From Dermacentor variabilis (Eukaryota; Arthropoda; Arachnida; Ixodida; Ixodidae), in the NCBI RefSeq assembly GCF_050947875.1, contig NC_134568.1, positions 264,224,815-264,288,814 of the forward strand: a DNA stretch of 64,000 nucleotides, in the 5' to 3' direction. A model generated the notes under the pieces. The model was not told the origin of the DNA and searched no databases. It saw nothing but the letters and a program-made list of their open reading frames with translations. Shown here one piece after another: positions 1 to 61,499 of the stretch (its first letter is position 1; each line of letters opens with the position of its first letter). The position numbers and the translations under genes are program-made.

Positions 1-691
1 TGCACGTATGGCAACCCTTAAAGGTTGCCGTCTGACAAAGGCGTCCGAGAGTGACGAAGGAGCGGTGACAGGACGGGCTCGAGGCGTTAACAACCGACAC
101 TCCCCCGCTTAGAAGATTGGAAGGATGTGCATGCATTCGATAGCTTTCAGTGGGGAGTAATTGATCGTCACGAACAATCGCCCGATGGCTCGCGTCTATG
201 GGCTGTCGCGTTGGCTATGACTTCATTGGCGGCGGCAATACAGAGAGAAGGCCCCTAAAGGAAAAAGCAGACGATCTCTTGTGAGTGACTGTGGGGTCCA
301 CGCTTCATGTGCAGCAAAAGTGTTTGGCTGACATGTTCATGGTAGCACTCTCTACGTATCGCGAACACCTTCTTACATCATTCCACGTCGCTTCTTACAC
401 CAAACAACCGTTTGAGAGCAAGTGCCTATCACTGGTGATATATCGATGTTTCAAACCAACTGCTCAATATGGAAATTAGAAAATTAACTAGTCTTCACTA
501 ACAATTACCTGCTAGTCTCCTGCTAAACCAATCTCACGAAATATCAAACAAGATAGGCTCACAGTAAGATGGCTGCTTCAAGTGATTAACACTGATAAAA
601 CAAGAAATGTCGCTGGAGCCGGCATTTCGAGTAAGGGTCTTGGAAAGTTGGCTTCTCTCCCCAGTGACATTCCTTGTTCCACTACGGTTGA
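1..691. other. Window edge and 3' flank of the repeat-protein gene
   Basis: No convincing exon or named repeat is visible. Possible 3' UTR of the minus-strand gene if its terminal exon at 692-749 is right; I found no clear AATAAA on the minus strand here. A short palindrome lies at about 11-30. The gene could also continue beyond base 1. Confidence 0.3.
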
Positions 692-749
692 TCACGTCAC
701 GAAATACAGTCCCACTTTTGTAAATATTGTTGCTGAACTTGATATCCGT
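692..749 (-). CDS. Candidate terminal exon of the repeat-protein gene
   Basis: After an AG acceptor (751-750) the phase left by the 789-969 exon reads 18 codons, then TGA at 694-692. The tail is short, serine/threonine-rich and lacks cysteines. It is supported only by phase and splice consensus. The real last exon may be a class B exon outside the window. Confidence 0.3.
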
Positions 750-3700
750 CTTTAAGGTGGTAGAAAAATACGCGCGACATTCGCTCACATCAATCTATCA
801 TTAAACGTCCGGCACTTATCGGTTAAGTTTCTCAAAAGCTTTCTTTTCCCAGATATTGTTTCCGAATAATTATTTGCTGCAATATGCATAGTGTAGCTAA
901 GGAGCTTTTGATCATCTGACGTCTCTGTACATATAGGAAGTGCATTATAGGGTACGTGTATGCGCTTTTCTGTGGCCACTAATATACGGCATAAACTAGA
1001 AAGCACGCTATAAGTGTTTGTTGAAGGTTGAGCGATATCATTTTCATGGTGTGCCTGTCAAGCCTTCAGGTGACTTTTTTGTTCGCGACCTCAGATAATT
1101 TTGGTGTTCAAATAAACTGTTGAAAAGCCCTAGCCATACCGGTAGAAACTTTGGTTGAGCAAGCAGTCTTGACGGTTGTCACAGCGGTGGTCGTGGCGTT
1201 AACAACATCCGGATGCTCCAGGAGATCCTCGTAGGTTTGGCATGCACTTGTTATCTTGTCTGCGACGCAATGCCTGTAGTCCTGGTAATGACTTTTGAAA
1301 TGGAATGAGAAAAAAAAGAAAAAAAGAAAACAATGAGGAGTTGTAATAACTGTTAGAAACACCGCGATCCTACCTGCACAGGAGCTCGGAACGACGGCTT
1401 CCTGAGGAATGAAACTGGCTGGGCTGGCTGATTGTAATGAAGCCCATGCATTCCGTTATATTTTCCAACAAGCTCGACTTGTCGCATACCATTTGAGCTA
1501 TGTGCCAAAAGAAATGTAACAAGAATCATTGAACAAATCATCACAATCATCAGCAGCATCGTATTTTTATGTTCACAGCAGGATGAAGGCCTCTCCCTGC
1601 GACCTCCTATTACCCCTGTCCTGCGCCAACAGATTCCAACTTGCGCCTGCGAATTTCCTAATTTCATCACCCCACCTAGTTTTCCGCAGTCCTCGACTGT
1701 GCTTCCCTTCTCTTGGCATCTGTTCTGTAACTCTAATGGTCCACCGGTTATCCATACTACGCATTACATGGCCTGCCCAGCTTTATTGTTTTTCTCTCAA
1801 AGTTAATTACAAGTTAGGCTATCCCTGTTTGCTCTCTGATCCATACCGCTCTCTTCCTGTTTTTTAACGTCACGCTTAACATTTATCGTTCCATCGCTCT
1901 TTGCGGGGTCCTTAATTTGTTCTCAAGTTTCTTTGTCAACCTCCAAGTTCCGGCCCATATCTTAGCACCGGTAGAATGCGGCGATTGTACACATTTCTTT
2001 CCAATGATAGTGGTAAGCTCCCAGTCAGGATCTGGCAATGCCTGCCGTATGCACTTCAACCCATTTTTATTCTTCTGTAAATTTTCTTCTCTTGATCAGG
2101 GTCCTCTGTGAGTAACTGAACTAGATAAACGTACTCCTTCACTGACTCTAGAGGCTAGCTGGCGATCCTGAACTCTTGTTCCCTTGCCAGGCAATTGAAC
2201 ATTATCTTTGTCTTCTGCATATTAATGTTCGACCCACTCTTACACTTTCCCTGTTATGGTCCTCAATCACTTGTTGTAATTCGTCCCCAGTGTTGCTGAA
2301 CTGGACAATGTCATCTGCGAACCGAAGGCTGCTGAGATATTCGCCGTCGATCCTTACACCTAAGCCTGTCCAGTTTAATAGCTTGAATACTTCTTCCAAG
2401 CACGCAGTGAATAGCATCGGAGAGATTGTGTCTCCTTGTCTGACCCCTTCCTTTATAGGCATCTTCCTACTTTTCTTGCGTAGAATTAAGGTAGCTGTGG
2501 AATCTCTGTAGAAAATTTTTAAGATATTTACGCAAGCGGTCTGTACTCCTTGATTACGTAATGCCTCTATGACTGCTAGTATCTCTACTGAATCATATGC
2601 CTTTTATTCCGTAGAGATACCAGCAGTGGAATGTTGCTCTCTACTAGTTGCTTTCAGTGAGCGCAATAGAAGCGGCTATAGCTCAACATAGCTCGCCTTG
2701 TACTTGGTCAAAGTTTAGTATTTTTAAATTAACAAAATCCTTCCTGAGTTCCAGTTTGAGCCATAGTAACACGCATATGCTGCGCTCCCCATACTTTAAG
2801 CGATAGTTACTTGCTCGAATGTTCTCGTTTGTCCAATGTCCATTAGTTCGTTCTGATTACTGAGCGCCTGCAGTGTTCAAACATTTGTGCGTAGCAATCG
2901 CCTTTCAAGGCCATCTTTCTTAATACATAATATTCCATGTTATTTAAAATGTAAGTGATGTATACGGTGAGTTTCATGTGGGAACGAAGCGACGTTAGGA
3001 TATTTTTAATTCGAAAGATATGCTTATTTACTGAAAAATGTATTTCGTCAAAAGTACATTATTACAAATAAGCAGTTAATTCTAAATACCTTTGTAATCG
3101 ACGGCCAGAGTGCATGTCCAGTTGTACTTCTGGATGATACGGTACAGTAGCCTCTTTATGTTAGCACTGTCGGGCACGGCTAGGTTGTCGCAAACTTGAA
3201 ACATGGCCAGCTTAGCACAGTTTTGTGCTTCCCTCAGATTCCTAGAAATTTGGTATTTATTTATACGTATATGTGTATATACAGCACACGTATACTTAAG
3301 TGCGGGGATAGCGAACTTACATGCATGCTGTCTTGATTCGTTCTTTGTCCCTGGGATTATCGCTGTACGGCTTGACGTCGTACTCGACGATTCCTATGCA
3401 CTCGTTGAGACTTTCTTCTAGCTTCTGCTCGTCACACTCCGTATCTGCGAATACCACGCACGACGCTTAGTAAATACGTCCTCATGAGAACAGGTATTTC
3501 TTCGGTAATATTTTCTTTTCCATTTACCTTGCATAGCAGCATCGCAAGCCCATTTGTATTCTTGGTAACTTTTGGATATCTTTGTCCAGATATTGTCCTT
3601 GGATAAAATTTTGCTGTGTCTGCACTTCATATCAATTGTGTAGTCCAGACACTTTTGATAATCTTTGATGCCTCTGTATAGGGTAGTCAATATCGGAACG

Positions 3701-6700
3701 TTGGACTCTGCTGCAACGCCAAGCTCTGAACTATGCGCAGACTAATAAGATTTGAATACACTCACTTGCATGCAACGTGTAGTTTTCCGTAGTGATGCTT
3801 GTCGACTATGTTTGGAAGTACTTTGTACGTAAGGAAACCATTGCAGTGAGTAAGGTTCTTAATGAGCTCGGTTTCCCGGCAGAAGATGCCTAAAGATAAG
3901 ATTGTCCTGTAAGTACTCCTTTTAATATTGACACGTATACATTGTGGCACTCTGGGCAAGTTAGTATTCCACTTTTTAGAACTGTACAAGCGCAAGGAAA
4001 ACACGGACAAAAATAAGCACACATACACGCACACACAGGCGCCGGAAGAAAAAAATGCGCACATACACGCACACAGGCGCCTGTGTGTGCGTGTATGTGT
4101 GCCTTCTTTTCGTCCTTGTTTTCCTTCCTTTTGTACAGTTGCTAAAAACGTATACATTCGTTATCTTTTCCCGTTTACCGTCTTTCACCGGCTAACAGCT
4201 AGGACACTATAACACAAAGCTATTCCAAACTTTTCTGTTCCAATTCTGCAATCAGCCCTCCACGAGTGGTGAGAAAATTTTTGGGGTCACCCCCAACTGC
4301 GCCTATCTGTGACGCGACGTCCCGAAAACAGCGATAGCTTCTCATCTGACATGACGTGTAACACTGATTATGCATAATTAAACCAAACAAAAATTATAAT
4401 TATTACTTATTCGACGCCTTTTCGCCATTAGCCTTCTACTATTAGTCGAAAGTTTTCGGGCTGTGCCCACTTCGCCTGTTTTTAACGCGACGTCGCGTTA
4501 AAGATGCATGAATATACCGAACAAAATTGAATTTTTTTCTGCATAGCCAGAGACTGCCCTGTTCCGAAAGGAATAAAGATGGCCAATCAATCAGGCACTC
4601 GCTACTCGCACCTGCCAGTATGCATTGATTTTCATATAATAATAAAAAAGCTTTTTTGCCTGGCAGTAAAACGTTATCGAGTGCTTTCGGCACGTATATG
4701 ACATCGCTCTGCCAACTATTCTTTGCTGAGGACACTTTTTAGCGGCATTCTAAACCTTCCATTGCACGCCGCCGCAATGTTTCGACCAGCCACAGCAGGC
4801 TAAGTAAGGGGAAGCGGACCAATCGTAGACGCCGGCACCAGCCTCTTCATCCGATTACCTAATTTCACTGCTCTGGCTCGGCCCCATCGAAACTCTCTGC
4901 ACTTAAGCGTGCTCCTCGCCTTTTGTCATCCAATTAGATAAAAAAAGAACGCTCAGCGTAGGCAATGTTATTCGTTTTGAGAAAGAACAAATGTGACCTA
5001 CGAACGAGGAGACCGTTTTATTGGGCTGTTCAGAGACAACACTGTGGTCACTGCCCGATGCTTTCTTCGGGTCGGCGGTTACGTAAATTTGACGTCAGAA
5101 GATTGGAATAAAACAGATTGGAGTAGTTCTACGCTATAAGGCCCCTGTTACAAAGTTATCGCTCGGCGCAAGACGAGCCGATCGACGATAGTCGTCGCCG
5201 CTATCGTTCTGCTCCGAGTGTTACTTGCTTTGCTGAGCCAAAAGCTCGCCCAACCAAGAGTTAGATTCATTACTCGCTGTTTGGTACTGATTGGTTCCTC
5301 GCCATCACTATATCGCGACAATCTCATTAGGAAATAAAATGGAAACATTTAGACTACTAACCGGTTTCACATGTCCAGTTGTACTTGCTGAAGACTTCGT
5401 TGGTGTAATACCTGACTACCATATCCTCAAGGGAAGTAGCGTTGTGCTTGCAAGTCTGCAGCACGGTGTTGATGCACAGCTGGTAATCCCGTACGCCACT
5501 GCATATGTTTATTTGAAGATTAGCGCGCACAGCAAAATTTATTGCAACATGTGCAGCAGCAATGTTCGTTTATTGGGTTCTACAATAAGAAACAGTAATC
5601 AATTAGCCATCATACAACGTCATAATGAAAAGTTACGTAAGTGGAAGTGCCAAAACACCAAGCTCGCTGAAGCTGTACTCAACAACTACATCCCGGCTTG
5701 CCCAGCTAAATGCCGCCAAGACTTAGAGGAGAATAAAATACAGCGAAGGGCTCTGCGCGAATTGCACCATATGTTTAAAAATGCTACTTCCCATTTTAAT
5801 TGTTTATTTACTTGTTATGTCCCCTTTTACTTACCCATTGCAATTACCCAGGCGGGCGTTCGCATACACGGCTACACGTTATGTCAAGGCCTAAAGATGC
5901 GCGCTTAAAGTGGAACGTGCAATAAAGTGGAGACAAATTTTGATGTAGAAGCTGCGCAATAATATCATCAGTCCGCTTTTACGCCTCGAACCAGACAAAA
6001 GAGAGAGCAGTAATTTGGCTTTATTTTCTTCTTGCGATTGCGGTAGTAAATCGGTCATACGCTAAACAGCACAGAAAAGCTCAGAAGTGTCCCGCAACTT
6101 GAAACCGGGCGCTTTTTCCAGAATGCGTCAGCAACTTCAATCGTACATCCGCAGATTTTGCGAAACGCGTCTGCGAATGTTTATTGTAGTATTAGGTGCC
6201 GCTGTGTACGCAGCACTTATAGAAGCTCATCGGGAAAAGGGACCAATAAAGACCTGTGTAGCATTTAACACGTGGTTAGTCGCTTCTCGACGTCGTCGAA
6301 AACTTTCACATTCACACCCTGCGCGAATAAATCGATGAAATAAAATTTAGCAGACCAATTATAATTAACTGGCTGCGCGCAATGCACGCTTTGTATAACT
6401 GTCACGAAAGTGATAATTGCCAGTCACTCAAATGTAGCACCAAGCTACAGAGGAAACGCGTATGGTTTTCTCAGAAAGAACGGTTCGGAGTTGCAGAAAA
6501 ATTGTACTGGTACGGCAATGAAACCCGGTTTTCGAGGCGGTCACTGTACCATCTTAGCTGGCCAGAAGGCTGGAAAATTGCAGCGCGAGGCAGAATTGAT
6601 CGACAACTCGAAGAAAATGTACACTGAATATGGCAAATCGGTTCTGCGGAAGACCTCAAAGTTGGAGGAAGGTTCCCTTTCAACCTTTCTTTCATGAACT

Positions 6701-9700
6701 TTCCTCCATCTTGAAGGCTTCCGCAGAACTGATTTGCCATATTCAGTGTACATCTGCTTCGAGTTGTAGATCAGTTTGGCGCAGTGCTGCTATCTGCTAG
6801 CCTACTAGTCAGCTCAGACGGTAAATCGACCGCCCCGGAAAGGCAGAGTGTCGTCCGGGTTTGACCCACAGACCAGGACGAATTTTTCTTCAACTGCGAA
6901 GCTTTCTGAGAAACCCGCATGAGTTTGTTTCCCTTGTAGCTTCGTGCCACAGTCGGGTTAATGACAGTTTTGTCTTTCGTGAACCTTCCTTCACCTTGCG
7001 GGCTTTCGTATAACTGACTTGTCATATTCGCGAGTAGGAAAATAGCATCCATATGAATATAGAGTTGGTGGCATATGGCATAACACTTTTTGTTATATAT
7101 TTTCGCCACTTCGTTAGGATAACTGGTATACTTACCACGTCATAAAGTGTATTGACACCTAATTTCTTTGAGTGCGTCGCAATTACAGCCATGGTTAACT
7201 GGGTCTAGAAAGGCTCACTCACTAGCTTTGCTGTGGGGCAGCAAGCTTTGAATAGGTGGTTACAAAGTTAAAGTTAAAAACTGTACGACCATCTGCTACT
7301 TGTACTTTTCCTGACAGCTGTGATCTTTCCTGTGCGGCGAGGCAATCCGCCAGGAATTTCACGCTGTTAAAGGTCTACTCACACGCAAGCAGTCCGAATT
7401 TTAGATTCGATGTCTGTGTGCTGTACGTTAGGGATCACGTTATAGGCGACGAATGGGTAGCAGTTCTTGAGGTGTTGTACTATATTCAGGTCGTTGCAAG
7501 CAATTTCTTCTGCAAAGATGAAGTAGAATTTCATTGTTAAGCAGCTTACTAGCAGATGAAGATTATTCGCGACAAGAAAAATAAGCGCGAGAGAATCTCA
7601 TGAATTGTACAGTGCCTTACCCTCTATGTCGCTAGTGTCGGGCACATCACAGACCCATTTGTATTGATCGTAGAGCTCATGCGTATAGCGACGAATTTCA
7701 GGCGTTTCAAGAACGGCGCTGTTGTACTGGCAAGAACTAAGCACGCGAGATAGCACACATCGTTGAAATCCCAGGAGGGAGCTGTAAGAACGAATACCCA
7801 GTTAGTGCAGCCGAAGCCATGAGGCTATATTGTCTCTTTAATGTAATAGGAACACCCATAGGGCTGAGTTCGCATAGAATGCACTCACTTGCAAGCTTTT
7901 CGCAGCTGCAGAGGGTTCGTTTTGTCTTTGCTCATTGGAATTACAGATATAGTAATGAAGCCAACGCACTCAGTAAGGTTTCCGAGAAGGAATTCTTTGC
8001 GGCACATATCTGTAAAATAAAGCACAGTAAAGAATCAAAAGTACTTGTACATCGAACGAAAAAAAAATTGTGTCGAACGGCTCTGCTGGCGTCAAGAGCG
8101 TTAAAAAAAATGACGGTCTTAGAGAGATTACTCCAACGCTTTTTTTTTTTTTTTTTGTAAGCGACCACTTGCCATTGTAGCTGCTGTCGCGACAGGTCCA
8201 ATTGTAAGCGCCGTAATGCCTGACAGCATATTTCCACACGTCATCATCACTCATCACGTCCTCACTGGCGTTGCAAGTTGATTCTACGACATTTTGAACA
8301 CACGCTTGGTAACTTCTTACAGCCCTAAAAAAAGGAAAAGAACACGTGCTCTGTATCAGATAACCAGGCGTACACTACCTCCACAAAACCTTTGCAAAAG
8401 CACGACAGAATACGCACATGCAGGATTCGTCCAGTTCAGAAGAGTCACTGATAAACTTCGCCCTTGGGATGACCTTGTATCTTATAAAACTGTAGCACTC
8501 CGCAAGTTTGGGAACCAGCTCTTTTTTGATGCATGTATCTAGCAGAAAGAAAAATCGCGTTGCGTTGGAAACCTTGTTAGAATTTTAATACTGAGTTTGC
8601 TTCAATAGCTGCAAATTATTTTGTGGGCACGAATAACTTTCGGCCGCTCTTCGGGTTTAATGAAGTGGCCATTAGAAGATGAGAACGTGCAAGAAAAAGC
8701 CAGGATTTTAAACAAGCTGTCAATTTCATACAAGTGCGGAAGCATGGGAGAGTCGGTAGTTCATTATGATACACAAATGGCTTAAGCAAATAAGGAAGGG
8801 GAGAGTTAAACTCTGCATGTATCCCCCCTCCCCCCAACTACTTTGCCAATCTTATTTTGTAAAGCATTCATACCATCGCAAGGCTTATTACGTATACGAC
8901 TTTATCTCGATATACCACAAAAATTGTTTTAGTCTTACCTGGTTCCGTCGGTGCATCGCAAATTTCACTGACATATTTGCTGATTGTCTGCGTGTAATAC
9001 TGGACTCTCTTCGACTCAAGGACTTTTTGCATACCAGAGCAAGGCAGATTCGTGTGATATTTCACGCACTCGTGGAAAAGTGTCAACTTTCTGCAATTTA
9101 AACGAACACTGAAGCGTTCACACATGACACAGAAAAATATTTTGGGCGAAAGTCGGCATTTCTTTGGGTTTGTTTTAAGCAGAGTGTCGAATCGAAACTT
9201 TCTCGTTCCGGTTTTCGTTTCAGTTCACCAAAAACGGTTCAGTTCCGGTTCAATTCGGGAGAGAAAAATAAATGTTCAAACCGGTTCGAGCCGGTTGAAG
9301 TTCGTTTGCATAACTGAAGAATATTTACAGAAAAACTGCGCATTCTTTTTGTATATGAAGTCGACGCTACTGCCAAGCTGCACTGAAAGATTACGCCTGT
9401 TTGTTCTTCACGCCACAGGTAGTTAAAAAGCATTATGTAAATCCAACACAAATACTGGGATCTATGTGTAGCGAAGCTTATTGAGGAGAAAGAGAGAGAG
9501 ACGATTTTATATTGAGAAAACGCAGAGTTCTCCAGCCTCCTACTGAGCTCAGGAGGAAAGGGGGAGTGAGGATGAAGACAGTACGATGCGATTACATACA
9601 CCTTCGTATTCGAAGGGCTAGTTCACACCCTCGAATATATGCCTGCGTTAACGAAAAATTCTGAGAGAGCCTTAATGGCTCGCTTCATTGATATGTCCGG

Positions 9701-27700: not shown

Positions 27701-30700
27701 CAGTGACTACATTCTGGCATATTCTTTGTATTTGAAGCGTTCGTTGCTCGACCATTCACAGTATCACATTAAAAAGATTTCTTTTCTGTCTTAACTCTCT
27801 TGTATCTCTCTCTTGTTAACAGCCGTTTCCAAGTAGGCTTCCTCAAACCTGCGTTTGCAGCAGCTAAATAATAATACTGAAACAACGCTTTAAAATACGT
27901 AACTGGCGTCATACTTGCCAGTGTTCTTTCTTTTTTTACCGTCGAATGTCTAATCTTAAAAAGGTAGAGAGAAGCTATGGGCTTGTAACTATTTCAGTTG
28001 AAAAGGCCGTTGAAATAGCATGCGCAAAGGTACCATTCCAAGAAATGTCTTCAGTATAATTTTCTCCCATGAGAAAAAAAAAAACCTCAAGCGTTCTGAG
28101 TACTTCCCAACAGGCACAATTGTTACAATGTCATTTTATACCCACTGCAAGCGATCAGATAGGTGAGGACAGAATAAAAAGATAGCACATACGGGCTCCG
28201 CTAATCAGATTGTCGATATTGAAGAAAAAAAACTAACACCGCGCTGAAATTGGTCACGCAGTAGATAAAAATATCCGGCGATCGCATCCCCGTCGTAAGA
28301 AAACAAGGGGGAGGTGAAGCGGCGGAGCAGGAAGACGACCTTTCGCTTTTCTAATGTATGCGACACGTACTGCGGAGGCAGCTGTATCTAGTTCTTGTGT
28401 TTTGTTATACGGAAGGCACTGCTGGTCTTCGGCTTTCTTGTCCCGTTTTCAAAAGCTGAAAATTCACTTCACGAAGTAGCAGACTCCCTCCTCTCCCCCA
28501 TTGCAAAGGCATACAGGAGCGACGTGAAATAGTGAAAAAAAATGCATTCTGTAAATTGTACACTCCACTAGCATATATAGCGTATACTCACATGTGAATA
28601 CATGAATTAAATAATATTTCTTCTCATTCCGTTATAAATATTTCATACATATTAATTGAATGCAGATACTACGATCACATATGCTATAGCAGGTATAATA
28701 TGGTACCCGCCGAGGTGCCTTAGCGGCTATGGCGTTGCGCTGCTATATAAGCACGAGATCGCGAGATCGAATCCTGGCCGCGACGGCCGCATTTACATGC
28801 GGAACGAAATGCAATAACGCCTGTGTACCGTGCATTAGGCGCACGTTCAAGAATCCGCAGTGGTCAAAATTATTTTGGAGCCCCCCACTACGGCGTGCCT
28901 CATAATCAGATCGTGGTTTTGGCACGTAAAACCGCAGAATTTTAATATAAAGGTATAATCTCGACAGGTCTTCCCAATATACGTGAGCGACTGTAATGCG
29001 ATAATATTATGGCGTCCTATCATTCAGCGACTGCCACATCAAGGGCGCTATAACGTAAAACTATTCCAAACTTTTCTATTCCATTTCTGCTATCAGCCCT
29101 CCACGATTGGTCAAAAACTTTTTTCGACCACGCCCACTTCACGTGTCTGTCACGCGAAGTCACGACAACCGCGATACCTCCCCATCTGATATGATGTGTA
29201 CTCACCGATTATGCATGATTTGACAGAAAAAAGAGAAACAGTTATTTCTGATTCGACCCCTTTTCGCCATTAGCCCTCGGCTATTGGTAAAAAGTTTTCG
29301 GGCTGCACCCACTTCATCTGCCTGTCTCGCGACGTCACAAAACCGCACAATCTCACCGCGTCAAAGTGACGTGTACGCGATAAAGATGCATTAATATGCC
29401 GAACAAAACTGCATTTTCTTCGGAATAGCCGCAGGCTGCCCCGTTCTGAAAGGAATAAAAGATGGCTGCCGCCGATCTCTGAGACGCTGGCTACTCGCAC
29501 CTGCCGGAGAGAATGGGTGCACTTACGTATAATAAAACTTCTTGCGTGGCCGTGTAACGTTTTCGAGCCTTTTCGGCACGTTTACCACCTCATTCTGCCA
29601 ACTCTCCTTCGCTGAGGGTCAGTTTTAGCGTCATTCTTAAGCTTCCGTTGCATGCCGGCGTGATTTTCGATCAGCCACCACAAGCTAAGTAAGGGAAAGC
29701 CGACCAATCGCAGATGCCGGCACCACCCTCTTCATCCGGTTATCGATTTTCAGTGCACTGGCTCTGCCTCAGTGAATCCCTCTCCACTTGAGCGTTCTCC
29801 TCGCTTCTTGTCAGCCAATTAGACACGACAAGCCGCTCAGTGTAGGCAATGTTATTCGTTTTCAAGTAAACAAAAGTGACCTGCTATGAACGAGGAGAGA
29901 GTTTGATTGGTCTGTTCAGACAACGCTGCGGGTGACCGCCCGGTGCTTGCGTCGGTGGTTACGCAAATTTGACGTCAGGAGATTGGAATAGAAACATATT
30001 GGAATAGTTTTACGTTATAGGGCCCTAAGTCCCTGCCCCTAGCATGGCTATCCCAGAACTACTACGGTCTCAAGTCCCCATGACTACCGGCTTGCAGGCG
30101 CCGTGTACAAGGCGCGTGTAGCGTAGTTTTGTGGCACCACATCGCTTACAACGTTGCTACAGCTTGCAGGACTCGGACACGACCTGGGCGGCATCCAGGC
30201 TACTGACGACGACTACATGCCGCCGTGTTGGTCACAGGCCGGCGGAAAGTAGTCCCTATTTTGTATATGAGCGCTGCCTGCCGTCGCCGTGTCCTTCTCG
30301 ACTCCGGCCAGCGGTCTCCGCTCCGCCTGCCATGAGTCGGGATAATGAAAAGATACTATGCCAGTGCCAATGCCTTCTTTCGCGCTTCCTCACATCGCGC
30401 TCTGCCCAGTATGAACGGGATCAGCTGGCAGTGAACTGTAGATCCCAAGAGTGGCATAGAATCGAAAGCAAGGAATCGCTATACATTATACCGGCCCTGG
30501 GCCTGCATAAGATAATGATTTCTTTCCGTCAATTAAATACCTTCATCATCCACCACTCGCGTCTCATGGTTATAACGTACGCGGAGCGCTGCCCGGGCCA
30601 CTGAGGAAGCGCGGAAAGGAATGGGCATTGGCATCGCCCCTTTACATTATCCGGGCTCTTCTGACGCGCCTTACCCACGTGACCTGTGCCTCTCTGTTTC

Positions 30701-31360
30701 CGCTCTTAGATCAAAGCCCGCTCCCTTACCCCGCTGGAGTTCTCAGTCCACATTATCCGCGAAGACACTGGAGTGTGTATAGTTTAATGCTATCGCGCCA
30801 ATAATATACATATACTATATGGCTTTACCATATACTATGTGCTATATACGATTGCACAATAGTAGTCATATGCATCGGATTTGCATGCATTTATGATTGC
30901 TGAAAAAAAAGCGCGACATAGAAAAATGCAGAGAGAACATAGAGCATTGCCCAACCATAAGAAACGTGCGCGAGACAGTCGAGCAAGTATTCGATGTATT
31001 TCTGTGCATGTAAGCAATTTAGCAAGGGCAGAGAGGTGCGTCGAAGGATTTTACTTCGATTTTGCGCAAGCTATTTGAGATACGAGTGAAATTAATAAAA
31101 ATGTTAGTCGTCAACCAACCATGCGATGCCTTCTCTTTTTCCCCGTGTGTTGCGCATTTCGACCAAGTTTTCACGTTACTTTAGCGCTCCACCGGGCCCG
31201 TTTACGCGCGCAAATGCGATTCGGTCGAGAAAACGAAAGATCAATGAAATTGCCAGGTTTTACGTGCAAAACCACGGTTATGACGCACACCGTAGTGGGG
31301 TACTCCGAACTAATTTTGACCACTTTGGCTTCTTTAGTGTGCACCCAAGTCTAGGCGCAC

Positions 31361-31398
<38 letters not shown>

Positions 31399-31408
31399 GC
31401 GTGTGCGT

Positions 31409-31455
<47 letters not shown>

Positions 31456-34400: not shown

Positions 34401-37400
34401 CGTTATTATGGCAAGCTCTATCATGATTTACAGGCGGCTGACCGCCGAACAATCAGGAGACCTTTTGTGAGTACGGGCACTGCAGAGGCGACTCGCACGA
34501 ACACTGGCTGGCCAGTGGGGACACTGAACATATTATTAGCGAAGGCAGTCATCCGATGACAAAAAATCTGACGAACGAAAGGCTCTATGAATTAGACCCC
34601 GAACCTACAGAGCATCAGGGGCGGTATTCCCGGAGGATCCCTTTCGGCGATACTATCACTTTCGCGTGACGTAATAAACGGCGCGTTGGATGATTCGAGG
34701 GGTCTTGCTCCACGAGCTAATAAGCGCACATCGAAAGTGACCTCTCCGAAAGCGATCGCCCGAAAATACGTTCTCAGTTTGTTCACCAAAATTGTGTTTG
34801 TGACGGGATATCAGTTACATGACATCCTTATAAACAAGAAAAAAATAAAAGCAATAAAAAGAAAACGTTCAGCAGGGTTGTCGCGAAGTAAACTAAGGAA
34901 ACGTTGGCTCACCAACAGGCTTTCCGAACGACGTCCTTGTTATCCGAGTCAAGGAAAGGAGCCACCTTTTTACCAAGTATTGTGAGGCACGCTCTCAACC
35001 CAGACAGAGCGTCAGTGCCATTTGCCGCATGCTTTTCTGCAGCAGTAGAGAAAAAGGCAACACATAGCAGATGAGATAAATGTCAGTGCAAACGCACAGT
35101 CAATAAAAAGAGAGAAAAGAAAACGTGGTCGCCTACATTCGCTTTTGGTTTGTTTTTTGGAACACGTCATTGCACAACGTTCAAGCAGTCTTGCACCCTT
35201 ACCGTACACTTCAATTGCTTTGCAGCTGCTGTTGACAAATCCAACCAAGTTAGCCGCCAAGGACCGAACTTCGTCGTACTGGAACAGCGTCATCTGCGAC
35301 CGACATCGCCCTTCTACAATTGCGCGTACGCAGTCCTCGTAGGAATTCAGGAGCCTACGTGGAGAGAAAGCGTCGAGTCATCTGCTGTCGAAAACCAGAC
35401 AACGACAGTGCCTGCATTATGAACACGAAAACCCCCCACAAATGAGAGAGAGAGAGAACGCTGAGGCTTCTTGGTCACCAGGAACGTTTCAGCTTGGCTC
35501 CTAAATGCAATTCTTCCTTAATAAGAGCTGTCAATAAAGTTGTCTCGTCGTGCATCAATAGGCTACACCGTTCAAGCGGTAGCCAAAATGTGTAAACCCA
35601 CGAAAGAGACCTTAGAATCAAAACGCCCATGACTGAATCGATTATTGGGAAGGACCTGTATTGTGCTCCGCCAAGTACTCACATGCATTCCTGAACTCTT
35701 CTGCCAGAATCCAAATGTTGCGAGGAGAACGCCAAGTTTCTCAATCTCAGATCACCAGAGCTGGAATTTTCCGCGTCGTCCCGTCGGAAAGCTCCATGTT
35801 TAAATGCACCGTAACAACGAAGCACATCGTCAACCAACGCTTTTGTCGTGCAACTCGATTCTGTTGGGGTATACAAAGAACAGCAGACGTTAGTTGCTAT
35901 GTTCTCTTGAAGCGCAACCATCGTACGTTATTATTATGAAAATCTCAAAATAGTTAACTCCATTCTCAATACGAATGAGCGAAATGCAAGAACGCAGTTG
36001 TCCCGTGCATTCGATGCACGTTAAAGATTCCCTGGTAGTCAAAATTAATCCAGATTCCTCCACAACGGCGTGCCTCATAAATCATGGTTTTGGCACGTAA
36101 CACCCCAGAATTCACTCATACCAGTGAAGTTGAGACAATGAATTCGTCATTTCTACCACGCACTGATAAAGTACACAAAGATTATTTTCGCTAGTTTCCA
36201 TTTTAAACCCCGGTGTTCTAGAACATTGCTCCACTCGACATTCCACCTCGACTTTAGAAAGGTAACGGCAGCTCCTGCCCTCGTAAGAACCGGACACTGC
36301 GCTGCAACGACACTCCAGGACAATTCTAGAGAGGAGTAGCGTTTCACGGTTGACTCGCTGGAGTGGAGAAAGAGTGCTTTTTCTTGGACGAGTCGTAATT
36401 GAATATTGGCATGGGTGGGGCTTTTTAAGACACGGACACAGTCAGACACACAGACAAACAAACGGGAGCTTTATCTATGCGTCTCACTGTGTCCGCGTCT
36501 TATAAAGCGCAACACATACCAGTATGGAGGAAGACCTTCGAGTCTAGGATCGTTTGAGAATAGAGAGGTGGCGGCGCCAAGTGGCCTACCATAGAGATTT
36601 CAAAGGCAGCACGCCATTTGTAACAATCATCAAGGGTAAAAATAAAAGTTATGCAGTAAGCGAAGCTTCCAATTGTTCGAATGACTTGGCCTTCTCTAGA
36701 CGCCTTGGGACCCCTAGCCTGCCTCCTCCTCACATCCACTTCCTCTTTCCACCCCACGTTCACGAAAAAGTCCTTGCGCTATAATCGTTAGTAAGAGATA
36801 GCTACGAAGCAATCATAGCGTTGCCCATATTAGAGCAACCAGCCGGCTAATGGCAAAGAGCACTAATGAACAAGAAAAGCTTTGTGAATTCGGGGCGTCG
36901 TCTTTTAGCTAAAGCAGCCTCACGTGTTGCGTTACTCTTCACCGATCGATAGGCACTCCATTTTTATCTATCTTTGTAGTGTTACACAACGCGCAAAGCC
37001 AAAGTGCCTGGGTAAAGCACGCCACTCAGGCGCGCCCTCTCTGTTGCGACCGAACGTACATGTGCACCAGGCGCGGCGGGAATGACGTCATAACTGACGC
37101 AACTATTCACTCGACTCCGCTCCCTACACGTACCCTCCTCCTCTCTACCTCTACACATTTCCTCACAGCCGAATGAAAGTGTCCGTGGATTCGGCCGAGA
37201 GCACGAGAGCGAGAGTGAAGAATGTCCTAGAAAATTGTGGAAAGAGGTTGACTCGAAAAATAGGCAGCGTCAAAAGATTACTGTTTTGTTTCAGCTGCTT
37301 TATCACGGCCAAAGCATCTCATACACTGTTTTAAGAAGGTTATAATCAAACGCGCCGCAGTAATGTAACAAGCAGCTCACCTCCCAATGGTACACGAACA

Positions 37401-37990
37401 AATGACCTTGATGTCGCGCCCAGCAGCGTTTCTACTTATATTAGCTCCTGGACATAGAATAATATTGAGCTCACGCAGGGATGAAAGCCACCCGGTCGAA
37501 ACGCCTGTACGGTCGCCCGAGTGTTCACGATACCGAGAGCTTCACGAATATTAAAAAGCAGCTGCACAGATTAGCAAACTAAATTTCTTTTTCAGGTGGA
37601 ACCACATGATTACCTCGCTGAGTTTGTAGCCACTGCAGCCCCGAGCGGCGAGAAGCTAGTTGATAAAGTCTACCATGTAGTATAAAACTCGTAGCAGAAG
37701 TCAAATGAACATAAACATACCTGTGAGTACTCTGACAGGAAAGAAACAGGCAAAGACGACAAGAACCAACGATATCACTTGTAACAGTACGCTTAAGAGA
37801 GCTCGCCACCTTGCTAAGCCTGTCGACCTGCCAGGAAAGAAGAAATCACAGCTCCGGTAAGTTTAAAAACGCATTTGTTCACCCTACGCAATAGTCAAGT
37901 CTACTTACATGACTCATCGGCAGTTGAAGTCGCTTTTTCTGCCAGCACTCAGCATGCAGTAGCTGGCATTGAAGGGTACAAAGAGACGTG
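692..37990 (-). CDS. Giant secreted protein gene built from about 19 two-exon, six-cysteine modules
   Basis: Whole-gene entry; exons are listed separately. I see a signal exon, then 37 or more exons alternating between class A (C-x11-C...C, ends phase 2) and class B (C-x8-C...W-x-C, ends phase 1). Every adjoining pair is phase-compatible except one gap (35,203 to 25,087). Listed coding exons sum to about 5.36 kb, near 1,780 codons. Hydrophobic N-terminus, paired cysteines and recurrent N-linked sequons suggest a secreted extracellular glycoprotein. Family unknown to me: the C-V-x7-C spacing of class B loosely recalls the DUF1397 / 27-kDa haemolymph glycoprotein family, but that is a guess. 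The reading frame is closed in every intron. Alternatives: two adjacent paralogues (35-38 kb and 1-25 kb), or alternative splicing of modules. Sure of the exon array, unsure of function and of both ends. Confidence 0.85.
789..969 (-). CDS. Divergent class A-like exon (long form)
   Basis: 181 bp, acceptor CAG at 972-970, donor AT|GTGAGC, phase in and out as in class A. It has only two cysteines: one in 'PICTETSDD' and one in 'NLTDKC'. It carries 'RNLT', the sequon class A exons place just before their second cysteine, so it may be a rearranged class A exon closing the array. Confidence 0.55.
1140..1291 (-). CDS. Class B exon
   Basis: 152 bp; 'YRHCVADKITSAC' gives the C-x8-C pair and 'VKTAC' the last cysteine, but the usual tryptophan is missing. 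Donor CCG|GTATGG, phase 1. Pairs with the class A exon at 1374-1497. Confidence 0.85.
1374..1497 (-). CDS. Class A exon
   Basis: 124 bp; 'MVCDKSSLLENITEC' shows C-x11-C with an N-I-T sequon before the second cysteine; ends 'ELLC'. Acceptor TAG, donor AG|GTAGGA, phase 2. Confidence 0.87.
1540..2620 (-). mobile_element. RTE-clade non-LTR retrotransposon, 3' relic
   Basis: Minus-strand frames show reverse transcriptase pieces: 'KEGVRQGDTISPMLF' and 'SLRFADDIVQF' around 2,200-2,460, and the RTE C-terminal signature 'WNLLAQDRGN' near 1,600. An ATC/ATG-rich tail lies at about 1,540-1,562. Stops and frameshifts are many, and the 5' part is missing. It sits in the intron between exons 3090-3241 and 1374-1497, in the same orientation as the gene. 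Confidence 0.85.
3090..3241 (-). CDS. Class B exon
   Basis: 152 bp; 'NCAKLAMFQVC' gives C-x8-C and 'YNWTC' the terminal W-x-C, with an N-W-T sequon. Acceptor TAG (44-42), donor AAG|GTATTT, phase 1. Confidence 0.9.
3321..3444 (-). CDS. Class A exon
   Basis: 124 bp; 'TECDEQKLEESLNEC' gives C-x11-C; ends 'KTAC'. Acceptor CAG, donor AT|GTAAGT, phase 2; AT joins G of the next exon to encode Met. Confidence 0.9.
3528..3673 (-). CDS. Class B exon
   Basis: 146 bp; 'YQKCLDYTIDMKC' and 'YKWAC'. Acceptor CAG, donor AAG|GTAAAT, phase 1. Joins the upstream class A exon through a split Lys codon. Confidence 0.92.
3766..3889 (-). CDS. Class A exon
   Basis: 124 bp; 'IFCRETELIKNLTHC' with an N-L-T sequon before the second cysteine; ends 'HVAC'. 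Acceptor TAG, donor AA|GTGAGT, phase 2. Confidence 0.92.
3974..4148. repeat. Foldback (inverted-repeat) element rich in CA/TG
   Basis: Arms at about 3,974-4,040 and 4,073-4,148 are mutually complementary ('aactgtaca' against 'tgtacagtt'; the CA-rich left arm ends 'aggcgcc', the right arm starts 'ggcgcctgtgtgtg'). Probably a foldback MITE; similar small ones occur at 36.4, 33.85 and 63.5 kb. Confidence 0.7.
4201..5145 (+). mobile_element. Non-autonomous TIR DNA element, copy 1 (about 0.95 kb)
   Basis: Left end 'ctattccaaacttttctgtt' and right end 'ctacgctataaggcccc' match the better preserved copies at 29,043-30,025 (same orientation) and 53,583-54,568 (inverted). No transposase frame is visible. 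The most diverged of the three, in the 5362/3889 intron. Confidence 0.75.
5362..5498 (-). CDS. Class B exon
   Basis: 137 bp; 'YQLCINTVLQTC' is the only C-x7-C in the set; 'YNWTC' ends it with an N-W-T sequon. Acceptor GCAG, donor CCG|GTTAGT, phase 1. A long plus-strand frame across it (5,291-5,908) is antisense chance coding. Confidence 0.9.
6433..6951. repeat. Head-to-head inverted pair of tRNA-derived SINEs
   Basis: The left copy reads 'agctacagaggaaac...tttctcagaaag', and the complement of the right copy reads 'gaagctacaagggaaac...tttctcagaaag'. The inner 55-bp arms around 6,617-6,672 and 6,698-6,752 ('gtacactgaatatggcaaat' and its complement) are nearly perfect. The axis is near 6,685. 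A tRNA-like 'gggttcgacc'-type box is decayed. Known in ticks as Ruka-like SINEs; the family name is from memory. Confidence 0.65.
7383..7509 (-). CDS. Class A exon
   Basis: 127 bp; 'IACNDLNIVQHLKNC' gives C-x11-C; ends 'RTAC'. Acceptor GCAG, donor GT|GTGAGT, phase 2. Joins the 5362-5498 exon through a split Val codon across a 1.9-kb intron. Confidence 0.9.
7621..7781 (-). CDS. Class B exon (longest)
   Basis: 161 bp; 'FQRCVLSRVLSSC' and 'YKWVC', followed by an acidic tail after the last cysteine. Acceptor ACAG, donor AGG|GTAAGG, phase 1. Confidence 0.9.
7889..8009 (-). CDS. Class A exon
   Basis: 121 bp; 'MCRKEFLLGNLTEC' gives C-x11-C with an N-L-T sequon; ends 'RKAC'. Acceptor ACAG, donor AA|GTGAGT, phase 2. 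Confidence 0.92.
8173..8315 (-). CDS. Class B exon with a GC splice donor
   Basis: 143 bp; 'YQACVQNVVESTC' and 'YNWTC' (N-W-T sequon). Acceptor TAAG. The phase-correct donor is ATG|GCAAGT, a GC-AG intron; nearby GT options give the wrong phase. Just downstream is a 16-base T run (8,141-8,156 on the plus strand). Confidence 0.88.
8418..8538 (-). CDS. Class A exon
   Basis: 121 bp; 'TCIKKELVPKLAEC' gives C-x11-C; ends 'DESC'. Acceptor TAG, donor AT|GTGCGT, phase 2. Confidence 0.9.
8939..9090 (-). CDS. Class B exon
   Basis: 152 bp; 'FHECVKYHTNLPC' and terminal 'VSEIC' (no Trp). Acceptor GCAG, donor CAG|GTAAGA, phase 1. Preceded by a 3.95-kb intron. Confidence 0.88.
9180..10790. mobile_element. 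Outer element with GGTTC-rich ends, interrupted by a second element
   Basis: The flanks at 9,200-9,300 and 10,660-10,780 both consist of interspersed 'ccggttc' / 'gttccggtt' motifs and read as two halves of one repetitive (possibly hAT-related) unit. Its middle is occupied by the TIR element at 9,752-10,344. Borders are approximate. Confidence 0.4.
9752..10344. mobile_element. Palindromic MITE with 25-bp terminal inverted repeats
   Basis: The left end 'taaaggccgatccacacg' and the complement of the right end 'taaggccgatccacacg' match over about 25 bp, continuing with 'ggaccaa'. Subterminal GC-rich blocks ('cgcggtccggtcc', 'gcggacctcggtcc') are also inverted. No transposase. Family unknown to me. 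Confidence 0.7.
11474..11660 (+). repeat. tRNA-derived SINE
   Basis: The head 'cccgtagctcaattggtaga' is a tRNA A-box region, and 'gatgcaggttcggcactc' fits a B box 45 bases later. A pyrimidine-rich body ('tttctactttcatttgtct') follows. Not a functional tRNA: the acceptor stem does not pair. Confidence 0.6.
13042..13168 (-). CDS. Class A exon
   Basis: 127 bp; 'LCNVDEIQMNLTTC' gives C-x11-C with an N-L-T sequon; ends 'IEEC'. Acceptor TCAG, donor CG|GTGAGT, phase 2. Confidence 0.9.
13240..13382 (-). CDS. Class B exon
   Basis: 143 bp; 'YKECVNAATEKIC' and 'VNWTC' (N-W-T sequon). Acceptor TCAG, donor CTG|GTATGC, phase 1; the following intron is only 71 bp. Confidence 0.92.
13473..13596 (-). CDS. 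Class A exon
   Basis: 124 bp; 'PTCNKEGIIQVISEC' gives C-x11-C; ends 'PAAC'. Acceptor GCAG, donor AA|GTGAGC, phase 2. Confidence 0.92.
13693..13832 (-). CDS. Class B exon
   Basis: 140 bp; 'YNFCQWYLTQEVC' and terminal 'HRFVC' (Phe/Val in place of Trp-x). Acceptor GCAG, donor AAG|GTTTGT (weak), phase 1. Confidence 0.85.
13988..14105 (-). CDS. Class A exon with a GC splice donor
   Basis: 118 bp, the shortest class A exon; 'KKCDEAKLEEALHSC' gives C-x11-C and ends 'TEAC'. The phase-2 donor directly after TGC is AG|GCAAGT, a GC-AG intron with otherwise perfect consensus. Confidence 0.88.
14186..14337 (-). CDS. Class B exon
   Basis: 152 bp; 'YQRCVQGIVSEIC' and 'YYWTC', the family consensus. Acceptor TAG, donor ACG|GTGATC, phase 1. 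Confidence 0.92.
14412..14535 (-). CDS. Class A exon
   Basis: 124 bp; 'QLCNTEALHKRLPMC' gives C-x11-C; ends 'KLAC'. Acceptor CCAG, donor AG|GTGAGA, phase 2. Confidence 0.92.
14631..14776 (-). CDS. Class B exon
   Basis: 146 bp; 'FQRCVKMTVPRQC' and 'YSWTC'. Acceptor TCAG, donor AAA|GTAAGT, phase 1. Confidence 0.92.
14856..14979 (-). CDS. Class A exon
   Basis: 124 bp; 'PFCEEAALVKNLSQC' gives C-x11-C with an N-L-S sequon; ends 'NLAC'. Acceptor AAAG without a good pyrimidine tract, donor AA|GTAAGT, phase 2. Confidence 0.88.
15074..15213 (-). CDS. Class B exon
   Basis: 140 bp; 'YQRCVTDTLNTSC' and terminal 'YEHLC' (Trp replaced). Acceptor TTAG, donor CAG|GTAAAT, phase 1. Confidence 0.9.
15214..18269. 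other. 3-kb intron with a diverged direct repeat
   Basis: No class A or B exon found. Two copies of a block of about 160 bp lie at 15,486-15,640 and 16,345-16,510 (shared 'gtgctcctaca', 'ttcgcggtggccagtaac', 'tttctgacggc'). 16,670-18,200 is AT-rich with a (TA)n patch near 17,690; nothing recognised. Confidence 0.55.
15486..16510 (+). repeat. Direct repeat pair (about 160 bp, 0.86 kb apart)
   Basis: Both copies carry 'cgctgcgtagg', 'acgcaggcgca', 'tttctaactttcaa' and 'ttcgcggtggccagtaac' in the same order and orientation. They could be ends of one element or a local duplication. No coding content. Confidence 0.6.
18270..18393 (-). CDS. Class A exon
   Basis: 124 bp; 'PRCFRNYVNKKLREC' gives C-x11-C; ends 'EESC'. 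Acceptor GCAG, donor AG|GTGTGT, phase 2. Flanked by the 3-kb intron on its 3' side. Confidence 0.9.
18933..19063 (-). pseudogene. Possible decayed class A exon
   Basis: In the intron between exons 19163-19320 and 18270-18393. After GCAG (phase 2) it reads on to 'VCYKDTNDETTHC' (C-x10-C, near the class A spacing), but hits TGA and has no phase-2 donor. Neighbouring exons already join in phase, so it is not needed. It could be chance. Confidence 0.25.
19163..19320 (-). CDS. Class B exon lacking its last cysteine
   Basis: 158 bp; 'YEVCVSMVIRDVC' keeps C-x8-C, but the W-x-C position reads 'LQESVSS'. Acceptor GTAG, donor CTG|GTAAGC, phase 1. Its partner class A exon (19548-19671) lacks its third cysteine. 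Confidence 0.88.
19548..19671 (-). CDS. Class A exon lacking its third cysteine
   Basis: 124 bp; 'PACSKAHLTERLPEC' gives C-x11-C, but the final Cys is replaced by Thr ('LETYT'). Acceptor GCAG, donor AG|GTGAGC, phase 2. Confidence 0.9.
19832..20241. mobile_element. TIR element carrying tandem tRNA-like boxes
   Basis: Ends are inverted: 'aatgcgaaagcatt' on the left, 'aatgctttcgcatt' on the right. Inside, the motif 'tcgaacccacgacctt' or close variants recurs at about 19,935, 20,010, 20,072 and 20,095, alternating with 'ttaattaaggt' at 19,970, 19,997, 20,043 and 20,058. It looks like amplified tRNA B-box segments (complement 'gggttcga'). Confidence 0.65.
20242..21121. other. Intron sequence without recognised content
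   Basis: No class A or B exon, repeat family or coding frame that I can support. Part of the 2.5-kb intron between exons 22130-22284 and 19548-19671. Confidence 0.4.
21124..21400 (+). repeat. tRNA-derived tick SINE
   Basis: Head 'ctagtggctatggcgttgcg' resembles a tRNA A box. The body has the marker segments 'ggccgcagtggtcgcatt', 'ttaaagaactctaggcagtc', 'cactacggtgtgcctcataa' and the end 'ggcacgtaagatgccggaat', shared with the copies at 28.7, 31.3, 33.1 and 36.0 kb. Confidence 0.75.
21401..22129. other. Intron sequence without recognised content
   Basis: AT-rich; nothing supported on either strand. Confidence 0.4.
22130..22284 (-). CDS. Class B exon
   Basis: 155 bp; 'FQKCVHKTAPKQC' and 'YNWIC'. 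Acceptor TTAG, donor CAG|GTGAGC, phase 1. Confidence 0.92.
22380..22503 (-). CDS. Class A exon
   Basis: 124 bp; 'TTCNERELLKNLSVC' gives C-x11-C with an N-L-S sequon; ends 'ATAC'. Acceptor GCAG, donor AC|GTGAGT, phase 2. Confidence 0.92.
22569..22714 (-). CDS. Class B exon
   Basis: 146 bp; 'LNCYSTVLNSLC' and terminal 'LRSC' (no Trp). Acceptor GCAG; the donor ATG|GTTGGT is taken for phase 1, although a GT 4 bases on would give the wrong phase. Confidence 0.82.
22790..23525 (+). mobile_element. CR1-like non-LTR retrotransposon, 3' end
   Basis: Plus-strand frames read the C-terminus typical of CR1/L2-type ORF2: 'VRPQLEYTSSVWDPH', 'QNGSVRFILANYHRTASVT', later 'DWNNLSTSLVS'. It ends in a short (AAAT)n-type tail at 23,505-23,522. 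Several stops. Inserted antisense to the host gene in one intron. Confidence 0.75.
23672..23792 (-). CDS. Class A exon
   Basis: 121 bp; 'YDCDINVVLGKLHDC' gives C-x11-C; ends 'SVSC'. Acceptor GCAG, donor TG|GTTAGT, phase 2. Confidence 0.9.
24095..24231 (-). CDS. Class B exon
   Basis: 137 bp; 'FKTCMQDILSSKC' and 'MNWTC' (N-W-T sequon). Acceptor GCAG, donor TCG|GTGAGT, phase 1. Confidence 0.92.
24311..24434 (-). CDS. Class A exon
   Basis: 124 bp; 'VCEETYVRESLKDC' gives C-x11-C; ends 'HRHC'. Acceptor TCAG, donor AG|GTAAAC, phase 2. Confidence 0.92.
24541..24686 (-). CDS. Class B exon
   Basis: 146 bp; 'FEWCIRQARIDTGC' has C-x9-C, one longer than usual; 'YAWIC' ends it. Acceptor TCAG, donor GCG|GTAAGT, phase 1. 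Confidence 0.92.
24760..24880 (-). CDS. Class A exon
   Basis: 121 bp; 'NNCDNDSLLMKLDNC' gives C-x11-C; ends 'VKAC'. Acceptor ACAG, donor AG|GTAAAA, phase 2. Confidence 0.92.
24951..25087 (-). CDS. Class B exon lacking its middle cysteine
   Basis: 137 bp; 'EYDKCAQREVKTID' keeps the first Cys only; 'LRWTC' closes it. Acceptor TCAG, donor TTG|GTGAGT, phase 1. It opens in the phase that only a class A exon leaves, so an upstream class A exon is expected but was not found. Confidence 0.88.
26150..26640 (+). mobile_element. Ty3/Gypsy pol relic (integrase C-terminal region)
   Basis: Plus-strand pieces resemble the end of a tick Gypsy polyprotein: 'HLLFGRDPALPFDTI' at about 26,205-26,250 (the integrase 'P-x-LLFGR-P' motif) and 'YHSSRGAS' near 26,570, where Gypsy elements often end in 'LKPYHS'. 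Frameshifted and without RT or LTRs nearby. Confidence 0.6.
27371..27396. repeat. (TA)n microsatellite
   Basis: Uninterrupted AT dinucleotide run of about 26 bp. Confidence 0.95.
28705..28952 (+). repeat. tRNA-derived tick SINE
   Basis: Head 'gtgccttagcggctatggcg', then 'gagatcgaatcctggccg' (B box), 'cactacggcgtgcctcataa' and end 'ggcacgtaaaaccgcagaat'. The most complete copy of this SINE in the window. Confidence 0.8.
29043..30025 (+). mobile_element. Non-autonomous TIR DNA element, copy 2 (about 0.98 kb)
   Basis: Left end 'gggcgctataacgtaaaac' and the complement of the right end 'gggccctataacgtaaaac' form a TIR of about 28 bp running into 'tattccaa'. Collinear with copies 1 and 3; no transposase. 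Internal short inverted 'gacgtca' boxes recur. Confidence 0.88.
31240..31560 (-). repeat. Reverse-oriented tick SINE split by a (GT)n tract
   Basis: Starts 'ttttacgtgcaaaaccacg' (complement of the SINE end) and finishes 'gcagcgtaacgctgtagcca' (complement of the head). A GT-rich tract at 31,361-31,452, with a central (GTGTGC)n block, has expanded inside it. Confidence 0.75.
31361..31452. repeat. (GT)n microsatellite with a GTGTGC core
   Basis: About 92 bp of GT repeats interrupted by five GTGTGC units. It yields spurious Cys-Val frames. Confidence 0.95.
33095..33285 (-). repeat. Reverse-oriented tick SINE, partial
   Basis: Shares 'gaaatgcggccgccgcggcc' and 'tgcgacggccatggccac' with the other copies; its 3' part is degraded. 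Confidence 0.6.
33650..34610. repeat. Diverged array of a 'gctttgtgaattc' repeat, with a foldback
   Basis: Variants of 'gcgaaggcggcc...cgaaaagctttgtgaattc' recur at about 33,730-33,790, 34,125-34,190, 34,260-34,335 and 34,540-34,600; another is at 36,830-36,895. A stem-loop with arms of about 48 bp at 33,849-33,951 ('cggcactaaagac' against 'gtctttagcgccg') sits inside. Confidence 0.6.
35203..35354 (-). CDS. Class B exon (first module)
   Basis: 152 bp; 'NSYEDCVRAIVEGRC' gives C-x8-C; 'VNSSC' replaces W-x-C but keeps a sequon at the N-W-T position. Acceptor GTAG, donor ACG|GTAAGG, phase 1. Confidence 0.9.
35683..35860 (-). CDS. Class A exon (first module, long form)
   Basis: 178 bp; 'SSCTTKALVDDVLRC' gives C-x11-C; an insertion of about 18 residues precedes the closing 'VQEC'. 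Acceptor ACAG, donor AT|GTGAGT, phase 2. Joins the signal exon through a split Glu codon, putting the first cysteine just after the predicted cleavage region. Confidence 0.9.
35965..36115 (+). repeat. tick SINE, 3' half
   Basis: Only the distal part: 'cccgtgcattcgatgcacgt', 'tccacaacggcgtgcctcat' and 'ggcacgtaacaccccagaat'. Confidence 0.65.
36400..36515. repeat. Small foldback element
   Basis: 'aagacacggacacagt' near 36,427 is complementary to 'actgtgtccgcgtctt' near 36,486, with 'tttt/aaagcgc' flanks. Same style as the element at 3,974-4,148. Confidence 0.65.
36900..37700. other. Intron 2 remainder
   Basis: No exon is needed here by phase. Contains a GA-rich 'cgagagcacgagagcgagag' stretch near 37,195; otherwise unrecognised. 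Confidence 0.4.
37721..37827 (-). CDS. Signal-peptide exon
   Basis: 107 bp. In the phase given by exon 1 it encodes 'MSTGLARWRALLSVLLQVIS', continuing 'LVLVVFACFFPVRVLT': a basic N-terminus, a hydrophobic core of about 20 residues, then small residues before the first module. Acceptor GCAG at 37,829-37,828, donor CAG|GTATGT, phase 1. A type II membrane anchor is the alternative reading. Confidence 0.82.
37909..37990 (-). CDS. 5' exon ending in a split start codon
   Basis: Exon ends ...GAGTC AT|GTAAGT at 37,909; AT plus the G of the next exon makes the ATG that opens the signal peptide. A second ATG seven bases upstream is out of frame with it, and two short upstream frames lie in the putative 5' UTR. 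The transcription start is unknown, so the 5' limit is arbitrary. Confidence 0.6.
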
Positions 37991-61243: not shown

Positions 61244-61499
61244 TAGCGCAAGTATTCTCGCTCTTCTTTGTTATGTGACTCTTGTTTTGCGTGTCCATTA
61301 CTTTCTGTCGCGTTTGTGCAGCCCACATCGATTGCGCGACAGTGGCCATTGTCGGGGACACTACTTTGATAGTCTATATAGATACAGATGTCCTGAGAGC
61401 CCATATCCGCCACCCGACTCGGATTGCCTTACAACATCTTGCTTTCTTGCCAGCAAAAAGGTCACATTCAACCTTTACCAAAAGTGTTGTAAGACATCA

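Follow-up and report, generated by a model that had tools for sequence, protein, structure and literature searches.

What kind of gene is encoded by a long row of cysteine-rich exons on one strand of a tick contig? The stretch in question, here called the window, comprises 64,000 nucleotides (nt) of Dermacentor variabilis (NCBI RefSeq assembly GCF_050947875.1, contig NC_134568.1, positions 264,224,815 to 264,288,814). An earlier note on this DNA had claimed that its minus strand carries a gene made of phase-symmetric two-exon cassettes with six cysteines each. That this gene is real is confirmed by a single open reading frame over the whole array and by a transcript-like relative, P0008. The array occupies window 1140-37827 on the minus strand and is preceded by a 5' exon whose end is at 37909; in the final model it consists of 20 A and 20 B exons following a signal-peptide exon. 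When the signal exon and the 40 module exons are spliced, 1860 amino acids (aa) are obtained in one open frame with no stop codon.

Structure of the array

All A exons have a length of 1 mod 3 (20 of 20; 118-178 nt) and all B exons a length of 2 mod 3 (20 of 20; 137-161 nt), as the note had stated. Each A+B unit is flanked on both sides by phase-1 introns and contains a phase-2 intron. The introns between module exons measure 65-9825 nt, and two GC donors occur in the array. The proposed alternation of A and B exons after a signal exon was upheld, while the number of exons (37, or about 19 copies) had been set too low: the model has 40 exons in 20 modules. No module exon was found by the profiles in window 692-1139, which the note had included. 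At least six cysteines are present in 18 of the 20 window modules. In the cysteine consensus put forward, the distance between the third and fourth cysteines needs correction, from about 9 to 8 residues.

The A and B cores were found by a pattern scan and then by profiles, made from those cores, that were run over all six frames. As the profiles were built on the window's own exons, the E-values obtained are flattering: in the first profile scan 36 of 38 cores had an E below 1e-9 and the other two had values of 3e-4 and 0.045. The best profile match on the plus strand was at E 0.89. The two most upstream A exons are less certain and are the weakest of the model; the one at 34913-35036 has a profile E of 0.032, and the one at 35683-35860, which has no profile match, was placed by phase and splice sites. 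No AATAAA or ATTAAA is present on the minus strand in window 1-1291, and the 3' end of the gene probably lies outside the window.

The initial exon lists presupposed the expected phases. Because the phases had thus been imposed by the scans, the test was repeated with the phase left free, the splice sites being tied to nothing but the two outermost cysteines of a modelled exon. Under these conditions the top acceptor was in the expected phase for 38 of the 40 exons (binomial P 2.6e-16 against one third) and the top donor for 34 of the 40 (P 2.2e-11 against one third). In both acceptor misses the site of the model ranked second. The six donor misses comprise two in which the model donor ranked second, two in M07, a module that has lost flanking cysteines, and the two GC donors. 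The arrangement of introns around the A+B unit is of class 1-1, which is associated with shuffled extracellular modules. Units of this design can be gained or lost without a frameshift, and the array is a new instance of the classical phase rule for extracellular modules, in a module for which no family has so far been defined.

Relatives in ticks

When 5.8 billion proteins were searched with 1672 aa of the spliced product, three tick proteins came up among 4032 candidates; the word filter and the length limits of such searches restrict inference about other arthropods. These proteins are P0001 (LOC142775098 of Rhipicephalus microplus), P0002 (LOC115318895 of Ixodes scapularis), and P0003 (V5799_014033 of Amblyomma americanum). 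They are 2235-2327 aa long and contain 25, 24, and 25 module matches, respectively, some of which are partial or weak. Like the window protein they consist of tandem modules of about 90 aa with a matching six-cysteine spacing, but with an identity of 23-24 % to it they are other members of the family rather than orthologues. The statement that no tick protein of this architecture had been described was thus close to the mark: literature searches gave no paper on P0001-P0003 or on this array gene, yet the three proteins are in the databases, labelled uncharacterized or hypothetical. Both P0002 and P0003 end in a hydrophobic C-terminal tail, of which there is none in the P0001 gene model; given this tail, the Ixodes/Amblyomma paralogue may be membrane-anchored. 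In P0001, residues 722-758 form an A half without a B half, which might be due to exon skipping or to a gap in the annotation.

Queries with a single module or with four modules matched only short sequences, several of which fit exons of the locus by eye. Another relative, the 356-aa protein P0008, which stems from a public contig 1214 nt in length, aligns without gaps over 353 aa to model residues 1365-1717, with an identity of 76.2 %. It spans seven predicted junctions, one of them with a GC donor, and the equivalent part of the window takes up about 5 kb. As its contig is so short, P0008 would, if the introns of its gene are similar to those of the window, most simply be a spliced transcript of a related gene in a related species; a processed copy is another possibility.

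Evolution of the array

The modules of P0002 and P0003 are collinear one by one, and none of 300 permutations scored as high. The 21 orthologous pairs compared for identity, from which unpaired modules and the mosaic module P0002_06 were excluded, are 45-87 % identical. The window modules have a median identity of 24 % among themselves and a maximum of 39 %; the top value of 100 % among the P0003 modules was disregarded, as it apparently stems from a short end-free alignment. High identity between orthologues combined with low identity between paralogues suggests that the copies are old and that each position has been kept. Between the arrays of the window, P0001, and the P0002/P0003 pair no clear collinearity was seen (34 to 270 of 300 permutations scored as high), and these paralogous arrays would have either grown separately or diverged past recognition. 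A tree of 90 module rows, from which 4 partial or weak ones of the 94 had been removed, has little resolution: 20 of its 87 inner branches are well supported, and what it brings out is mainly P0002/P0003 pairs.

The two halves of the mosaic Ixodes module resemble successive Amblyomma modules, its A half the first of them (29 of 41 residues identical) and its B half the second (35 of 51), as against 10 of 40 and 15 of 49 for the opposite pairing. The mosaic would amount to a B+A pair missing in frame, whether through deletion, splicing, or an error of annotation. As to the suggestion that the cassettes can be duplicated or skipped, the phases would allow both in the window gene. That a family of giant extracellular tick proteins, built on an unnamed neuritin/DUF19-like module, would create a combinatorial recognition repertoire by dropping A+B or B+A pairs in frame through alternative splicing, and so produce numerous isoforms that differ in their binding modules, is a speculation to which we attach little probability.

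Fold and disulfides of the module

An AlphaFold2 (AF2) model of a P0001 module has three helices, with a predicted local distance difference test (pLDDT) score of 88.8 and a predicted template modelling (pTM) score of 0.81. The cysteines of this module are at positions 4, 16, 41, 50, 59, and 86. Read from the AF2 helix limits, the module could be an up-down-up three-helix bundle able to pair cysteines 1-5, 2-4, and 3-6. The distribution of missing cysteines points in the same direction. In a survey of 93 module rows, 19 of them from the window (M01 was not included), 11 rows lack some cysteine column. Three of these are partial pieces (P0001_01, P0001_09, and P0002_23), three are apparent alignment shifts (P0002_21, P0003_22, and P0003_24), one is a single loss, and four are double losses that represent three loss events. 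Loss of both C1 and C5 is seen in M02 and again in the orthologous pair P0002_22/P0003_23, loss of both C3 and C6 in M07. Losses in such pairs suggest disulfides C1-C5 and C3-C6, which leaves C2-C4. A multi-module AF2 model of P0008 (pLDDT 70.0, pTM 0.33, 7 rows) gave nothing firm on the packing of modules against each other.

Kinship with known families

None of the 20 window modules on its own reached a Pfam cut-off, nor did P0001-P0003 when taken whole. Among the weak Pfam rows of 46 modules of P0001-P0003, in which 16 families were listed, DUF19 occurred 10 times, RGM_N 6 times, DUF1397 4 times, and NRN1 3 times; rows of these four families were seen in none of 20 shuffles with fixed cysteines. 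In profile comparisons the score for neuritin (18.9) was equalled by none of 100 cysteine-fixed shuffles, that for RGMA (16.3) by 1 of 100, and that for RAMP1 (12.2) by 4 of 100, or by 16 of 100 free shuffles.

Neuritin (NRN1, PF15056) is a single-domain protein with the spacing C-x9-C-x24-C-x8-C-x7-C-x27-C (human sequence), as compared to C-x11-C-x24-C-x8-C-x8-C-x26-C in the folded P0001 module. The NRN1 cut-off was not reached: a row was obtained for one window module in 20 (17.5 bits versus 27) and for 3 of the 46 modules of P0001-P0003, the latter at a best E of 0.024. DUF19 (PF01579) is the most frequent weak match in the latter set (10 of 46, best E 9e-4), and neuritin itself matches it at E 0.003. 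Its cut-off was likewise not reached in the window, where one module of 20 (M15) gave 14.2 bits versus 23.2, and P0001-P0003 as whole proteins gave no DUF19 row. For RGM_N (PF06535), 2 of the 20 window modules have a row, the best of which falls short of the cut-off with 19.7 bits versus 24.2; the whole window array scored 16.8 bits. RGMB was found in sequence searches of the PDB at E 0.48. According to PMC7354924, the RGM N-terminal domain is a three-helix bundle with three disulfides. It differs from the window module in that its C1 and C2 are just 4 residues apart. The domain dealt with in PMC8021180 and PMC6055854 is DUF1943 and not DUF19.

RAMP1 came out on top of a Foldseek structure search, albeit not significantly. 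The RAMP ectodomain has six cysteines, like the module, and its disulfides pair 1-5, 2-4, and 3-6. RAMP (PF04901) gave no Pfam row for the window modules, the array, or the P0001-P0003 sequences, and with a profile score near those of shuffles, membership of this family is not supported. The structure rows for PtcA, lpg2328, and MIT were taken to reflect a common helical arrangement, and Cdc37, TP53-regulated inhibitor, and acetoacetyl-CoA reductase, from the PDB sequence searches, were set aside at E 0.16 or worse. DASH_Ask1, which stays below its cut-off in P0001-P0003, is a family of fungal intracellular proteins, and its rows were set aside as chance matches of a helix-like kind. Whether the module belongs, distantly, to a neuritin/RGM-N/DUF19-like group is on these data an even bet.

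Possible function

The reading that we favour, with a probability of roughly 0.57, is that of a very large secreted protein in which a signal peptide is followed by at least 20 three-helix, three-disulfide modules of about 90 residues, and which serves in multivalent extracellular binding or scaffolding. N-glycosylation sequons are in excess (23 versus 12.2 ± 3.0 in shuffles) and this, together with the signal peptide and the cysteines, points to an extracellular location; the presence of many separately conserved modules is suggestive of multivalent binding. The protein would resemble beads on a string, each bead being encoded by one A and one B exon, a frame-neutral unit that would permit copies to be gained or lost. 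Each bead would probably be a three-helix bundle held together by disulfides C1-C5, C2-C4, and C3-C6, and perhaps distant kin of the small extracellular helical domains in neuritin, RGM, and DUF19.

Several observations weigh against this reading or parts of it. The AF2 input was a P0001 module, with 45 others as alignment, and not a window module, and unrelated helical proteins equal the scores obtained in the structure comparisons. P0003_03 lacks C1 alone. The hhalign probabilities are low (neuritin 14.9 % with a single sequence, RGMA 6.9 %, RAMP1 0.9 %), and 8 of the 20 cysteine-fixed shuffles drew some other Pfam row, at E 0.01-0.45. M15 aligns to DUF19 positions 100-138 and neuritin to positions 10-84. 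When the window array is summed, DASH_Ask1 scores above its cut-off (23.2 versus 20.7 bits), though none of the stretches does so individually, and weak rows for it return in 3 of 18 window modules, which makes recurrence alone weak evidence. No collinearity was found between the window array and P0001, P0002, or P0003 (73, 117, and 246 of 300 permutations, respectively, scored as high), and the 3' end of the gene was not found within the window. The recurrence of DASH_Ask1 and the DUF19 register slightly weaken the favoured reading.

The many diverged copies, in which little is kept beyond the cysteines and some core residues, and the predicted compactness of the modules would also suit a structural spacer or matrix protein of cuticle, cement, egg, or gut that provides length and stability without a module-specific ligand. 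This is unlikely, as orthologous modules are 45-87 % identical (21 pairs) as against the median of 24 % among those of the window, so that positions seem to be separately constrained. The likenesses to RGM, neuritin, and RAMP raise the thought of a co-receptor or ligand trap in which single modules would each recognize a growth factor, a receptor, or a peptide hormone, be it from the tick or from its host. None of these likenesses is significant, the RAMP1 score was reached by shuffles of both kinds (4 and 16 of 100), and a common fold shows no function; such a role is doubtful. An array in decay, that is, a pseudogene or an unexpressed set of exons, might be read from the two cysteines missing in each of M02 and M07 and from the two GC donors. 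It is very improbable in view of the open frame of 1860 aa that runs from the signal exon through all 40 module exons, the occurrence of the cysteine losses in predicted pairs, and the gapless 76 % relative P0008 over seven junctions.

The array reveals, exon by exon, a module claimed by no Pfam model, and a family of tick proteins of some 2000 residues or more, which databases so far list as nothing beyond uncharacterized or hypothetical. Ticks are important disease vectors, in which large proteins rich in cysteine, whether secreted or at the surface, might have a part in feeding, gut, immunity, or development. The regular exon design makes questions of isoforms and copy number directly testable.

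Exon coordinates and other features of the window

All exons are on the minus strand and are given here from 5' to 3' of the gene, each module extending from the start of its B exon to the end of its A exon. The start codon is split across a splice junction: the 3' end of 5' exon 1 (37909-37949, donor GTAAGT) ends in AT at 37909, and the signal-peptide exon (37721-37827), which has a hydrophobic stretch (hydropathy 2.79 over 19 aa) and exits in phase 1, supplies the G at 37827. M01 consists of A 35683-35860 and B 35203-35354, M02, with the 9825-nt intron, of A 34913-35036 and B 24951-25087, M03 of A 24760-24880 and B 24541-24686, M04 of A 24311-24434 and B 24095-24231, and M05 of A 23672-23792 and B 22569-22714. 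They are followed by M06 (A 22380-22503, B 22130-22284), M07 (A 19548-19671, B 19163-19320), M08 (A 18270-18393, B 17028-17179), M09 (A 15785-15902, B 15074-15213), M10 (A 14856-14979, B 14631-14776), M11 (A 14412-14535, B 14186-14337), M12 (A 13988-14105, with a GC donor, B 13693-13832), M13 (A 13473-13596, B 13240-13382), and M14 (A 13042-13168, B 8939-9090). P0008 spans the junctions from the exit of M15 (A 8418-8538, B 8173-8324), whose B exon has the other GC donor, at a junction crossed without a gap, through M16 (A 7889-8009, B 7621-7781), M17 (A 7383-7509, B 5362-5498), and M18 (A 3766-3889, B 3528-3673) to the entry junction of M19 (A 3321-3444, B 3090-3241). M20 (A 1374-1497, B 1140-1291) is the last module found; its B exon either has a donor GTATGG at 1139 or is read through into a stop within the next few codons.

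Two of the introns of the array gene harbour a dispersed repeat pair (window 4195-4947 and 29036-29832; four pieces, 77-85 % alike). Upstream of the gene, the minus strand of window 44673-45803 carries a reverse-transcriptase open reading frame (ORF) of a retroelement, with an RVT_1 match of E 7e-12 over its C-terminal part. An ORF of 248 aa on the same strand (50136-50882), which has no Pfam match, contains 2.5 copies of a 126-bp tandem repeat. An RNase H-like ORF below the Pfam cut-off on the plus strand (61282-61986) is probably another retroelement remnant, and window 54877-56280 is occupied by a tandem array with periods of 78, 155, and 311 bp.
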